Positions 39,755 through 47,528 of a stretch of 64,000 bases of DNA are shown piece after piece. The stretch lies in contig NZ_JAAMFG010000034.1 of assembly GCF_011064545.1 (NCBI RefSeq), positions 248,001-312,000 on the forward strand. The letters are read 5' to 3'. Source of the DNA: Wenzhouxiangella sp. XN24 (GTDB lineage: Bacteria > Pseudomonadota > Gammaproteobacteria > Steroidobacterales > XN24). The notes under the pieces are model-generated. The model worked only from the letters and a program-made list of their open reading frames with translations. It was not told the origin of the DNA and made no database searches. Made by a program: the position numbers and the translations under genes. Every line of letters starts with the position of its first letter. Position 1 is the stretch's first letter.

Positions 39755-41719
<1,965 letters not shown>

Positions 41720-41740
41720 CAGGCCGCGAATTGTAAGGCA

Positions 41741-41773
41741 TAAAAAGGGCCGGGGGAGTTGCCTCCCCCGGCC
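41741..41773 (-). terminator. Terminator of the decaheme cytochrome gene
   Basis: A perfect 11-bp stem (GGCCGGGGGAG and CTCCCCCGGCC) with loop TTGC, and AAAAA on its left side, which is a T tract on the minus strand. It lies 32 nt past the stop of the leftward decaheme gene and before the ABC-F start. Confidence 0.85.
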
Positions 41774-41804
41774 AGTTCAAGCGCAGCTTGATGCTGCTTG
41801 TTGG

Positions 41805-44231
41805 TTAGTCGTCGTGTCCCGGAACGATGCGGCCTTCGCCATGACACACGGCACAGGACTCAGCGGCTTCTGTCGTGTTCAGATCGAAGTGAGCCTTGGC
41901 AGCCGGCGTGTTGTGGCAACCGTAGCAGGACGCCGCCGTCGGCGCCATGCGACCGGTCAGACCCGGATTGTGCGGGGCAGCTTCCGTCGCACCCGGGAAG
42001 CCGTCAACCACGCTCCAGAGCGCCTCGTCGACGATCGGCAGCTTGTAGGTGTCGGGCAGATGGCAGGTTTCGCAGTCCGCCAGCGCCGCCGGATAGCCGA
42101 TGTCGCTGAAGTCGTACGGGCCCTGGCCGCGGCCGCCCTCGACCGTGCCGCGAATGAAGGAGAAGGGCACGGTGCGAATCGGATCGCCACCCACCGGCTT
42201 GCCGGCGTGCAGACCGTGAATCAGGTCCTTCATGTTCTGCGGCTTCTCGCCGTCGATATCCATGCCCGCGCCGTTCACACCATCGGGAATAATCCCCGAG
42301 AAGATGTTGCTGCTGGACATTTCCGGGTTGTGACAGGCTGCACACCAGTCCGGACCATTGACACGCGAACCGCCATGGAAGCCCAGCGTCTCGTGGCAGG
42401 CCAGGCAGTTCTCCTCACTGACCACCGTGCGACGCGGCTCGCTGGCGAACCCGATCACGGCAGACGTGTCGATGCTGGTGTCCTGGCTCTGCGGACGACC
42501 CTCGATACCGAAGGCCATCAGCGTCGAATCCGGCGGGAAGGCGAACGGCGCGGTCGGGTCGATGCCTGCGACCGTCGTGAATGCACCGTCCGCCGCCGGC
42601 GTCAGGCTGTCCACGAAGTCGGAGAGATTGCCGATGCTCTGGGGCTGATCCCAGGAACGCACGCCGAGCGACACGTCGAGATTCCACCACAGGCGACCAC
42701 CGCCCGGCGCGACGGGAAGGTCGTTCACCAGGTTGTTGTAGTCCTGCGGTGCACCCTCGAACGGACCCGCAGCGGCGCCGCCCGGATGGGCCACGCTCCA
42801 CGCGGTGTAGAAGCGCATGTTGCCGAGACCGATACCGGCCGGCAGGTTCTGCACGTCCACCGGCTCACCATCGGCCAGCAGGCGGAAGGTGACGATCGGC
42901 TGGTTGGCGTCATTGACCGTGACCGAGTCGATCTCGTACTCGAACTGCACGAAACCGTCAGGCTGCAGCGGGTTGTTCGGCGTGGACGAGTTGCTGATAT
43001 GGAACTTGTCAACACTGGCAAACGCGCCCTCGCCATGGCAGACGAGGCAAGCCGCCGTTTCGCTTCCCGCACTGAAGTGCGAGTCGTAGTCGAATTCGTC
43101 CGTTTCCACATGGCAGGTGCCGCAGGCATCCGCGCTCGGACGTGTCTGGAACGCCACGGCGTCCTCTGCACTGCGTCCTTCGGGCTTCGGCATGCGGTTG
43201 TTGTCATGGCAGGTCAGGCAGTTCGCCACCGACTGCGGGTAATGGACCGTGGAATAGTCCTTGCCCCTGAGCTGATAGCCATTGCCGTCCACGTGAATCT
43301 TGTGGGTCATGGTGGTCATGTCGATGGGCGCCCACTCCGTGTCGCTGGAGTCAAGCGAACTGAACGTGCCCGGGTTATGACAGGTCACGCAGTTTTCCAT
43401 CGTGTACCGGCGGTTGCTATGGACGTTCGGGAAGTACAAGTCCGCCCGGTCCGCTGAGTTGCCGTGACAGGCGCCGCAGGACTCCGTCGTCGCGACCAGA
43501 TTACTGGTCGGCGGCAACAACGTCGGCAGGTCGGCCGGCACGAAGTCGATGTTCGCATTGTAGCGCTGGCCGGAAGTCCGGCTCACGACGGAAATGCGAT
43601 GAAGCGCCGCCGGATCATAGGCGAGATCCAGCGTCGGCAGGATGGCCAGCGCCGCCGGCGAGTCCAGCACGCCGCTATCGCCGACACCCGCTTCGTCACC
43701 CGACACCGGCTCATCGCCGCTGCCGTAATAGATGAAGTCCGCCGCAGCATCGATATCGGTGACGAACGTGTACTGGTACACGCCCGGCTCGATCTCGGTC
43801 GCCGGGTTGCGTTCACCGGCGGCACGCAGCACGGCCGCACCAACGTCCCTCTCGCGCGAACGATTGATGTAGCTCTGCCACTGCGGATAGTCGCCCGCGT
43901 CGCTCACCTTGGCGATGGTGAACTCCCAGCGCTCGAGCCCGGTGACCGGCGTACCGGCACTGTCCTGGACTTCGAACGTCACAGTGACGATCGCGCTCGC
44001 AGAAGTGTCGATCTCGACACTGGTGATGCCGCCGGTCAGGGTGCCTTCACCCGGCTCCACGACGCCCGCGCCCGGAGGGCCTTCAGGTCCCGGGGGGCCT
44101 TCAGGGCCCGGAGGCCCGGCAGGACCCGCAGGGCCAGTGGGGCCCGGATCGCCGTCGTCGCCTTCGCAACCGGCAAGGGCCAGCGCAGCGACGCAAGTCG
44201 CCGTGGCCAGCAGTTTCGTCCAATTTTTCAT
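41805..44231 (-). CDS. OmcA/MtrC-family decaheme c-type cytochrome, surface lipoprotein
   Basis: 808 residues from ATG 44231. Lipoprotein signal: KLLATATCVAALALAGC, with lipobox LAGC. Ten CxxCH heme-binding motifs are counted: CGACH, CVTCH, CLTCH, CGTCH, CLVCH, CLACH, CAACH, CETCH, CYGCH, CAVCH. Right after the lipid-anchored Cys comes a Gly-Pro-rich collagen-like tract (GDPGPTGPAGPAGPPGPEGP and on), likely a rigid stalk. The first part of the mature protein is beta-rich, as in other family members, which pass electrons from the outer membrane to minerals or other extracellular acceptors. No porin (MtrB) or periplasmic decaheme (MtrA) gene lies in the window. The strong terminator downstream suggests a single-gene unit. 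Confidence 0.93.
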   Translation of the reverse strand: MKNWTKLLATATCVAALALAGCEGDDGDPGPTGPAGPAGPPGPEGPPGPEGPPGAGVVEPGEGTLTGGITSVEIDTSASAIVTVTFEVQDSAGTPVTGLERWEFTIAKVSDAGDYPQWQSYINRSRERDVGAAVLRAAGERNPATEIEPGVYQYTFVTDIDAAADFIYYGSGDEPVSGDEAGVGDSGVLDSPAALAILPTLDLAYDPAALHRISVVSRTSGQRYNANIDFVPADLPTLLPPTSNLVATTESCGACHGNSADRADLYFPNVHSNRRYTMENCVTCHNPGTFSSLDSSDTEWAPIDMTTMTHKIHVDGNGYQLRGKDYSTVHYPQSVANCLTCHDNNRMPKPEGRSAEDAVAFQTRPSADACGTCHVETDEFDYDSHFSAGSETAACLVCHGEGAFASVDKFHISNSSTPNNPLQPDGFVQFEYEIDSVTVNDANQPIVTFRLLADGEPVDVQNLPAGIGLGNMRFYTAWSVAHPGGAAAGPFEGAPQDYNNLVNDLPVAPGGGRLWWNLDVSLGVRSWDQPQSIGNLSDFVDSLTPAADGAFTTVAGIDPTAPFAFPPDSTLMAFGIEGRPQSQDTSIDTSAVIGFASEPRRTVVSEENCLACHETLGFHGGSRVNGPDWCAACHNPEMSSSNIFSGIIPDGVNGAGMDIDGEKPQNMKDLIHGLHAGKPVGGDPIRTVPFSFIRGTVEGGRGQGPYDFSDIGYPAALADCETCHLPDTYKLPIVDEALWSVVDGFPGATEAAPHNPGLTGRMAPTAASCYGCHNTPAAKAHFDLNTTEAAESCAVCHGEGRIVPGHDD

Positions 44232-44362
44232 GACTCCCTCCAGAGCACGCATATCAGTCAATCCCTAGAAAACCGATCAGCCCAGGTGCCACCCGTCCTT
44301 TGAGATGGAACCAACGCCTGACATGCAAGGAGCCTAGACGCTCGGAAAAGGGTCTGCCATTA

Positions 44363-44380
44363 GGTATCTTACCGATATCG
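44363..44380. promoter_or_regulatory. Overlapping palindromes upstream of the decaheme gene
   Basis: GGTATCTTACC (44363-44373) is an inverted repeat with 4-bp arms, and the adjoining CGATATCG (44373-44380) is a perfect palindrome. They lie about 130 bp before the decaheme start, in an AT-richer patch. An operator role is possible but unproven. Confidence 0.35.
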
Positions 44381-44453
44381 ATACGAAAGAGACGTATTAA
44401 CAGGCGTTAGCTGGACGCGTTCTAATGCCTGCTTTCCGCCATGGATCCCGGCA

Positions 44454-45833
<1,380 letters not shown>

Positions 45834-45971: not shown

Positions 45972-47528
45972 ATGGCCCGACAAGAACCCGCCGCAGAAAC
46001 CTCGAGCCCGAGCCCGCTTATTGCAAGAATCCTCGACTGGATCGAACGGGTGGGGAATAAACTGCCGGATCCCGCGGTCCTCTTTCTGCTCGCCCTGATC
46101 ATCACCTGGGTGGTCTCGGCGCTGCTCGCCCCCATCGACTTCTCCGCCATCGACCCGCGCACCGGCGACCCGGTGGTGATCAAGAACCTGCTGTCGGGCA
46201 CCGAGTTCACCAGCTTCCTGTCGCAGATGGTGCAGGTGTTCGTCAATTTCGCCCCCCTCGGCGTCGTGCTGGTCGCAATGCTGGGGATCGGCGTGGCGGA
46301 GCACACCGGCTTCATCAACGCCGGCCTGCGGGCGTTGCTGGGCTTCACCAAGCGCAGTCTGCTCACGCCGATGGTCATCACCGTCGGCATCGTGAGCCAC
46401 ACGGCCGTCGATGCGGGTTACGTGCTGGTGGTTCCGCTGGGTGGCGTCATCTTCTATGCGGCGGGACGTCATCCGCTGGCGGGCATCGCGGCTGCCTTCG
46501 CCGGTGTCTCCGGCGGCTTTTCGGCCAACTTCGTCCCTTCGAGCATCGACCCGATGCTCGCGGGCATCACGCAGGCCGGCGTGCAGGTGCTCGACACCGC
46601 ATTGCTCATCAACCCGCTCAACAACTATTTCTTCACGGCGAGCTCGTCGCTGCTGATCATCCTGCTGGGCTGGTTCCTGACGGACAAGATCGTCGAGCCC
46701 CGGCTCAAGGCCACACCGCTCGACGGCGACCTCGAGGACCTGCCTTCCATGGCGGCGCTGGAACCTGCGGAGCGCCGCGCCCTGCGCTGGTCGCTCGTGT
46801 CCATGGTCTTGGCCCTCGTCGTGCTGACGCTGACGGCCATCCCGGGCGGCTCGCCCTGGCGCGACCCGCTGGGCGAACTGGCCAGCCCCACGGCGCCGCT
46901 GATGCGCTCCATCGTCCCGCTGATTTTCCTGCTGTTCATCATTCCCGGCATCGTGTACGGCTACGCCGCGGGCACGGTGAAGACGCATCGCGACATCATC
47001 GAGGGCATGTCCAAGGCGATGAGCGGCATGGGCTACTACATCGTCATGGCTTTTTTCGCGGCGCAGTTCATCTTCGCCTTCGCGCAATCGAACCTGGGCG
47101 CGCTGATTGCCATCGAGGGCGCCAACTTCCTGCGCGAGCTGGGGATGCCCGCCCAGGTGACACTCATCGGCATCGTATTCGTGACGGGCCTGGTCAACCT
47201 CCTGGTCGGCTCGGCCTCGGCCAAGTGGGCCCTGCTGGCGCCGATCCTCGTGCCGATGCTGATGAGCCTGGGCATTTCGCCCGACCTGACCCAGGCGGCT
47301 TACCGGGTCGGTGACTCGACTACCAATATCATCACGCCGCTGATGCCCTATTTCCCGTTGATCGTGGTGTTCTGCAAGCGCTACGTCAGCAACGCAGGCA
47401 TCGGCACGCTCGTGGCGATGATGTTGCCGTATTCCGTGGTGTTCCTGGTCGGCTGGTCGGCTTTCCTGCTGCTCTACTGGGCGATCGGGCTGCCGCTGGG
47501 CCTGCAGTCGAGTTATGTCTACCCGTAG
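45972..47528 (+). CDS. AbgT-family transporter, copy 2
   Basis: 518 residues from ATG 45972, with AGGAGG about 8 nt upstream. Same family and similar architecture as the gene at 38152: DWIERVGNKLPDPAVLFLLA, VGIVSHTAVDAGYVLVVPLG, AFAGVSGGFSANFVPSSIDP, and YRVGDSTTNIITPLMPYFPL. The two copies share layout throughout, which suggests an old duplication. The difference in the ANLIPGTPID versus ANFVPSSIDP loop may mean different substrates. It sits divergent to the YfcC permease and converges with the MlaC-like gene. Confidence 0.93.
   Translation: MARQEPAAETSSPSPLIARILDWIERVGNKLPDPAVLFLLALIITWVVSALLAPIDFSAIDPRTGDPVVIKNLLSGTEFTSFLSQMVQVFVNFAPLGVVLVAMLGIGVAEHTGFINAGLRALLGFTKRSLLTPMVITVGIVSHTAVDAGYVLVVPLGGVIFYAAGRHPLAGIAAAFAGVSGGFSANFVPSSIDPMLAGITQAGVQVLDTALLINPLNNYFFTASSSLLIILLGWFLTDKIVEPRLKATPLDGDLEDLPSMAALEPAERRALRWSLVSMVLALVVLTLTAIPGGSPWRDPLGELASPTAPLMRSIVPLIFLLFIIPGIVYGYAAGTVKTHRDIIEGMSKAMSGMGYYIVMAFFAAQFIFAFAQSNLGALIAIEGANFLRELGMPAQVTLIGIVFVTGLVNLLVGSASAKWALLAPILVPMLMSLGISPDLTQAAYRVGDSTTNIITPLMPYFPLIVVFCKRYVSNAGIGTLVAMMLPYSVVFLVGWSAFLLLYWAIGLPLGLQSSYVYP

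Follow-up and report, generated by a model that had tools for sequence, protein, structure and literature searches.

Where does a decaheme surface cytochrome obtain its electrons when its gene stands apart from those of any partner? This question is raised by a gene at 41805..44231 (minus strand) in a 64,000-nucleotide stretch of the Wenzhouxiangella sp. XN24 genome, which was analyzed as a whole and is here called the window (contig C34, positions 248001-312000). The initial annotation had described its product as an OmcA/MtrC-type lipoprotein carrying a collagen-like stalk, with no porin partners and with an unclear electron donor. We followed up these claims by comparing the protein with known families and structures, by searching the remainder of the genome, and by examining its relatives and their neighborhoods in other genomes.

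A predicted decaheme lipoprotein of the OmcA/MtrC family

The open reading frame extends from an ATG at 44231 to a stop codon at 41805 and encodes 808 amino acids; a ribosome-binding-like stretch, GGAGGGAG (44234..44241, minus strand), was read 2 bases upstream of the ATG. The protein contains ten CxxCH motifs in two sets of five, between residues 252 and 395 and between residues 609 and 793, when 0.018 are expected by composition and no more than one was obtained in any of 2000 shuffles. A first pentaheme domain is delimited by a phmmer match over residues 246-415 (42987..43496, minus strand), with predicted hemes at residues 252, 281, 338, 370, and 395. The second corresponds to the best PF22113 stretch, residues 601-801 (41829..42431, minus strand), with predicted hemes at residues 609, 630, 720, 769, and 793. 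At the N terminus, residues 1-22 (44166..44231, minus strand) read as a signal peptide that ends in the lipobox LALAGC (residues 17-22), in which Cys22, the putative site of lipidation, is invariant in an alignment of 11 family members. The mature protein would start with C-E, followed by eleven uninterrupted Gly-X-Y triplets (residues 24-56; 44064..44162, minus strand). When the 40 residues behind the cysteine were shuffled 20000 times, no run of 11 arose, and the longest was 8. Although the repeat is thus beyond chance, the Pfam Collagen model gave 21.3 bits, under its cut-off of 27.2. The ten heme motifs, the lipobox, and the Gly-Pro-X tract directly behind the lipid anchor, as initially annotated, were all recovered in this analysis.

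The protein scored 302.8 bits against TIGR03507, the model of the OmcA/MtrC decaheme family (cut-off 209.3), and PF22113 matched it in two stretches with 162 bits. On its own, it retrieved a single solved structure at E <= 0.001, namely MtrF (3pmq_A, E 1.5e-14). A profile built from 11 family proteins matched OmcA (4LMH), UndA, which has eleven hemes, MtrF, and several MtrC structures. Based on these matches, we assign the 808-aa protein to the decaheme lipoproteins of the OmcA/MtrC family, and the earlier classification is supported. An AlphaFold model based on a two-row alignment with one distant relative was unusable (mean pLDDT 29.3, pTM 0.19).

Among the solved proteins, the family profile scores Shewanella OmcA (4LMH) highest (E 1.5e-83); it is likewise a decaheme member of the family, and its chain opens with a short Gly-X-Y run, GSDGKDGEDGKPG. 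By comparison, the tract of the 808-aa protein is longer (11 triplets), its gene is not next to mtrCAB, and the OmcA-like N-terminal domain PF22112 was not reported in it at E <= 0.001, whereas this domain is present in the genome's own MtrC (44 bits). We therefore consider the protein OmcA-like in role only and do not file it as OmcA. With MtrC (6R2Q chain C, 4LM8, and the genome's own) it shares the family and the heme count, and a lipobox followed by a Gly-X-Y start is found in 6R2Q chain C (GSDGNDGNPGEPG) as well as in the genome's own MtrC. Unlike MtrC, it falls into a separate branch of the family tree, and its gene lies 46.6 kb from mtrCAB, where the place directly upstream of mtrA-mtrB is occupied by another gene. 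Moreover, the only non-heme cysteine of the mature protein, checked over the whole chain, is Cys22, so that the CX8C disulfide of domain III of Shewanella MtrC is absent; the genome's own MtrC is likewise without CX8C. In Shewanella MtrC, this disulfide is described as controlling flavin use (PMC9973256).

The repeat itself resembles the Gly-X-Y repeats of streptococcal collagen-like surface proteins (Scl), and the NCBIfam SclB model matches residues 19-55 (E 3.8e-4). The score, however, is 19.5 against a cut-off of 325, the tract comprises only 11 triplets, and we see no relation beyond the repeat.

A complete mtrCAB cluster just outside the window

No MtrA- or MtrB-type gene was found in the 64-kb window, as the initial annotation had said: the over-cut-off matches of our genome-wide searches all lie outside it, and no other ORF of the window was listed with more than one CxxCH. 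The further claim that the cytochrome has no porin partners does not extend to the genome. On the same contig, a complete mtrC-mtrA-mtrB cluster is present at C34:237463-243162, with its three genes on one strand and with start positions given as those of the longest ORFs. The cluster comprises an OmcA/MtrC gene, mtrC (C34:237463-239898; TIGR03507, 445.6 bits), a decaheme mtrA (C34:240070-241002; TIGR03508, 291.2 bits), and mtrB (C34:241024-243162; TIGR03509, 454.7 bits), all scoring over the respective cut-offs. In the solved MtrCAB complex 6R2Q, chain A is matched by the encoded MtrA (E 2.3e-82) and chain B by the encoded MtrB (E 3e-82). The end of mtrB is 4.8 kb from the window start and 46.6 kb from the decaheme gene. 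The apparent absence of porin partners therefore results from the position of the window edge. The whole-genome search for MtrA/MtrB that had been proposed as a check thus leads to a complete Mtr conduit elsewhere in the genome, and the electron donor, initially called unclear, is likely to be MtrCAB.

Four matches to PF03264 (NapC/NirT-type) were obtained genome-wide, three of them over the Pfam cut-off and the fourth, below it, being the decaheme gene itself. On contig C36, one of the three over the cut-off, a NapC/NirT-type five-heme gene (L023, 11346-12800), follows an 11-heme gene (L023, 9209-11257), the product of which groups with proteins of genomes G026, G034, G065, G169, and G332 (six-row split, SH-aLRT 100). 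We compared 19 loci chosen for showing mtrA or an mtr-type array, with genes labeled by size and heme count; the set does not include the loci of the third paralogue, L019 and L061, or L059, whose gene is truncated by the end of its contig. In 5 of these loci, the surface cytochrome gene has a gene for 9 to 13 hemes nearby, and 4 of the 5 also contain a five-heme gene of NapC-like size. Because such genes lie near the surface cytochrome gene in relatives, the five-heme NapC-like and 11-heme pair is a fair candidate for the quinol-oxidizing step.

The genome also encodes a third OmcA/MtrC-type decaheme protein (contig C37, L019:9385-11688), which has a lipobox, a Gly-X-Y tract, and one CxxCH near its N terminus, and which reaches 171.9 bits against TIGR03507, under the cut-off of 209.3. 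An octaheme cytochrome of the tetrathionate-reductase family (contig C36, L020:7542-9206; TIGR04315, 412.9 bits against a cut-off of 375) carries a lipobox and a Gly-X-Y tract as well.

Flanking sequences and regulation

A strong terminator had been thought to isolate the decaheme gene. A hairpin scan identified an intrinsic terminator-like hairpin at 41773-41748 (41748..41773, minus strand), which has a long stem of 11 bp and a T-run and is well placed after the stop codon. This part of the claim stands, but the hairpin is one of two terminator-like sites where shuffles average 1.5, so that their count is not in excess.

No sigma-70-like promoter was found in 41600-44700, and no CRP- or FNR-like site was found in the 222 bases separating the decaheme gene from its upstream neighbor. 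A CRP-like palindrome with two mismatches is located at 44469-44484, just past the intergenic stretch and within the end of the neighboring gene; CRP-like sites number 6 in the 64-kb window, fewer than in shuffles (mean 15.2). These scans used consensus patterns for CRP and FNR. The longest word common to the upstream regions of the decaheme gene and of mtrC comprises 8 bases, compared with a shuffle mean of 8.4, and hence there is no shared motif above chance. Regulation shared with mtrC, which the initial annotation would have taken, together with a complete Mtr conduit elsewhere, as the mark of an ordinary member, was not seen in this simple search of common words and of CRP/FNR sites by the decaheme gene.

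Genes near the decaheme gene encode an AbgT-type transporter (PF03806, 37999-39702) and a DcuC-type carrier (PF03606, 44454-45881). Judged by eye, an ORF ending at 47528 resembles a second AbgT-type protein.

A small branch of the family with few known members

Matches to the 808-aa protein are present in all 7 genomes of its own bacterial family, but none except the own genome contains a full-length match in one piece, the best other match being 40% identical over 247 residues. Order-wide, with at most two candidates scored per genome, 91 of 396 genomes match at 1e-10, and besides the own genome only G320 exceeds 120 bits in one piece; its relative is 42% identical over residues 12-807 (568 bits). 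Class-wide, again with at most two candidates per genome, matches at 1e-25 were obtained in 3 of 369 genomes including the own, with 113.5 bits for the best other. In the family of G320, where up to four candidates per genome were scored, 5 of 217 genomes match at 1e-30, and G320 and G789 (45% identity) stand out with more than 560 bits. A pattern scan of contigs gave 14 matches, among which two distant relatives were confirmed, in Candidatus Sulfopaludibacter and in a Phycisphaerales MAG.

We placed the protein in a tree of 72 homologues, namely ORFs of 600-1100 amino acids with at least eight CxxCH, of which 71 came from loci selected as best-scoring matches, not as a random draw, and one was a G320 gene cut by a contig end; G789 is not among these rows. 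The decaheme gene groups with its G320 relative in a separate branch (SH-aLRT 100), and the genome's MtrC and those of its genus mates fall into another. The placing of the branch with the decaheme gene, obtained by a quick tree method, is weakly supported (88 and 90). Taken together, sequence comparisons assign the decaheme gene to a small branch of the family that is found in two other genomes, G320 and G789.

On contig C4 of G320, the relative has another family gene on either side, and the three genes share a strand. One of these flanking genes is cut by the end of C4, and contig C39 begins with the tail of that gene, the two contig ends sharing an exact overlap of 36 bases. Behind the gene tail, C39 continues with an mtrA-like frame and then mtrB (PF11854, 407.4 bits). 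Based on this overlap, the array is most likely a single run into mtrC-mtrA-mtrB, which would read family gene, relative, mtrC, mtrA, mtrB. The mtrA-like gene on C39 (L160:239-1210) has eight CxxCH in one frame and one in the next near the 3' end; it looks frameshifted there, which may be an assembly error.

In G789, the relative is present on two contigs (L171 and L172) with 91% identity; a contamination of 7% is listed for this assembly, and the two copies probably represent two strains in one assembly. No second multiheme gene lies beside the relative on these contigs of 6.6 and 7.9 kb, and its neighbors on the longer contig encode a radical SAM protein, a SnoaL-like protein, a ChuX/HutX protein, and metabolic enzymes. 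Thus, one of the three genomes of the branch has its member next to other mtr-type genes. In the set of 19 loci introduced above, at least two family genes lie side by side in 8. In genome G002, three genes of the third-paralogue type occur together without mtrA (L061).

Gly-X-Y tracts across the family

The initial annotation had given this cytochrome a collagen-like stalk. For a count of such tracts, 11 rows of a separate tree group were dropped from the 72 homologues. Of the remaining 61, 58 have a lipobox and, no more than 70 residues away, four or more Gly-X-Y triplets (median 9). Both the 808-aa protein and the genome's own MtrC, with ten triplets, are among them. The three misses are L024_44 and L131_1450, in which the script recognized no lipobox, and L159_2995, which has two triplets. 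The mean uninterrupted run is 8.7 triplets, compared with 2.4 in shuffles (59 of the 61 rows, two having no cysteine in their first 110 residues). In the alignment of 11 family members, G24, G30, G33, G36, G39, G42, and G45 are invariant, as are the heme ligands. Shorter runs of four to five triplets are found in the PDB chains of OmcA, UndA, MtrF, and MtrC of 6R2Q. In the OmcA/MtrC proteins compared here, the lipobox is almost always followed by a Gly-X-Y tract, which is common to the family rather than special to the decaheme gene. Among the open-access papers inspected by title and start of abstract, none describes such a tract.

The Phycisphaerales relative (L025:7698-9560 in MAG CP070827.1), a distant OmcA/MtrC homologue from another phylum with a partly masked ORF, has GEQGPPGEQGPPGEQGPAGEDG behind a likely lipobox. 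Within the bacterial family of the present organism, Gly-X-Y tracts are also found on 7- or 8-heme lipoproteins (L099, L103, L109, L111, L119, and L115 of the own genome). A lipoprotein of genome G001 without any CxxCH (L113:1306-3177) has at least 16 visible Gly-X-Y triplets, and hence the module is not limited to cytochromes. Behind the tract, lipoproteins of the own genome and of others in its family (L020, L057, L058, L060, L099, L103, L109, and L111) contain a stretch like CWDLNxNGxxD...NGDGxxDxxDC, which resembles a calcium-binding, dockerin-like repeat. The tract is unlikely to have arisen by recent slippage, given that its repeat is written in varied codons. A comparison of the 5' ends of paralogues for gene conversion gave identities of 0.58-0.78 over gapped alignments of only 120-160 bases.

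Tracts of one genome resemble each other. In the genomes with at least two family tracts (24 tracts in 9 genomes, rows with fewer than four triplets and L024 left out), tract length, proline content, and aspartate content vary less within a genome than in 5000 shuffles (p 0.0018, 0.0008, and 0.0002, respectively); numbers are small, relatedness was not removed, and some of the paralogues are recent duplicates. For proteins with cores less than 40% identical, the distance in tract composition, compared descriptively, is 0.376 within a genome (16 pairs), 0.503 between genomes of one family (141 pairs), and 0.555 between families (904 pairs). For different genomes with cores at least 40% identical it is 0.459 (527 pairs). 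The query tract, counted in this analysis as 12 triplets with the glycine just before the lipobox cysteine and elsewhere as 11, is nearest to the tracts of the genome's own third paralogue (0.14), of a G001 gene (0.15), and of its own MtrC (0.20); its distance from the G320 orthologue is 0.45.

Discussion

We consider it probable that the decaheme protein serves the Mtr pathway as an ancillary terminal cytochrome, OmcA-like and fed by MtrCAB. After export and lipidation, the protein would sit on the external side of the outer membrane. There it would take up electrons from MtrC of the MtrCAB complex or from another surface cytochrome, and its ten hemes would relay them to an extracellular acceptor. 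A transfer of this kind, from MtrC to OmcA, is described for Shewanella (PMC12304082). Upstream, electrons would probably pass from quinol to the pair formed by the NapC-like pentaheme and the 11-heme protein, or to a different NapC-type protein, then to MtrA in MtrB and from there to MtrC. The decaheme gene may stand alone because gene order does not link its branch of ancillary cytochromes to mtrAB. There is precedent for this: OmcA and the ancillary surface cytochromes UndA, MtrG, and MtrH are described as arising by duplication without mtrAB of their own, and several species of the Shewanella group as having two nonsyntenic omcA homologues each (PMC8805035). The UndA, MtrG, and MtrH clades named in that paper belong to the Shewanella group, unlike the present gene. 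The decaheme gene is most likely an ordinary extra surface output of an electron-export complex encoded about 47 kb away.

The protein might instead serve an outer-membrane route other than MtrCAB, such as a Geobacter-type porin-cytochrome complex or another conduit. This would fit the 46.6 kb between the decaheme gene and mtrCAB, its own terminator, and the presence of further lipobox-bearing multiheme proteins away from mtrCAB, namely the third family decaheme and the octaheme. We regard such a route as unlikely, given that searches with MtrB/PioB models identified only one porin of this type in the genome (a single genome-wide match to PF11854) and that the sole relative seen beside other cytochromes, that of G320, is most likely part of an mtr array. 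Electrons might also flow inward, the 808-aa protein oxidizing an extracellular donor such as Fe(II) and feeding MtrCAB in reverse. Multiheme chains are reversible, and the MtrB models used here cover PioB too, but NapC/NirT-type proteins are present in the genome and lie near mtrC in relatives, which would fit a quinol-oxidizing, reducing pathway, and we judge inward flow to be very improbable.

For an ancillary cytochrome fed by MtrCAB, the Gly-X-Y tract would act as a tether between the lipid and domain I, and a slack tether fits better than a rigid stalk. The tract might alternatively be an export or sorting signal for type II secretion or for the lipoprotein machinery rather than a mechanical part, consistent with its position directly after the lipobox and with a like start, C-x-G-D-D-G, that further multiheme lipoproteins from this bacterial family share. 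However, a soluble Shewanella MtrF without residues 22-182 is reported to be still secreted, and it is the C terminus that is said to matter for secretion (PMC6929479). The residues removed would include the short Gly-X-Y tract and most of domain I; this result disfavors an export signal, to which we give only a small chance.

The tract had been predicted to lift the protein off the membrane, as would a rigid triple-helical stalk that raises homotrimers of it. This is consistent with the glycine kept at every third place, seven of these residues being invariant, and with the excess in run length over shuffles; in addition, triple helices of bacterial Gly-X-Y proteins can arise in the absence of hydroxyproline (PMC8968730). 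By contrast, the genome's own MtrC has a ten-triplet tract of the same kind, where neither a homotrimer nor a rod about 9 nm long would fit easily, and MtrC associates with MtrAB at 1:1 (PMC8805035). A rigid stalk is thus hard to accept as the general function, and lifting by the tract becomes doubtful. The Shewanella members have only four to five triplets, and the score of the Pfam Collagen model is under its cut-off. Eleven triplets without a trimerization domain are close to the minimum length of a stable helix, and overall we consider such a stalk quite unlikely. A pairing of the Gly-X-Y tracts of one cell's surface multiheme lipoproteins in mixed triple helices, clasping ancillary cytochromes to MtrC, would explain both the glycine at every third place and the likeness of tracts within genomes, but composition drift or module exchange would give the same likeness, and we regard this pairing as a long shot.

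In conclusion, the likely electron donor of the decaheme protein is not missing but lies outside the window. The gene represents a small new branch of ancillary MtrC-family cytochromes, which can stand inside or outside an mtr cluster. The glycine spacing of the tract is kept very strictly. The solved Shewanella proteins have a short version of it, and if such tracts form helices or pair up, this would be relevant to the way in which OmcA and other ancillary cytochromes come into contact with MtrC.
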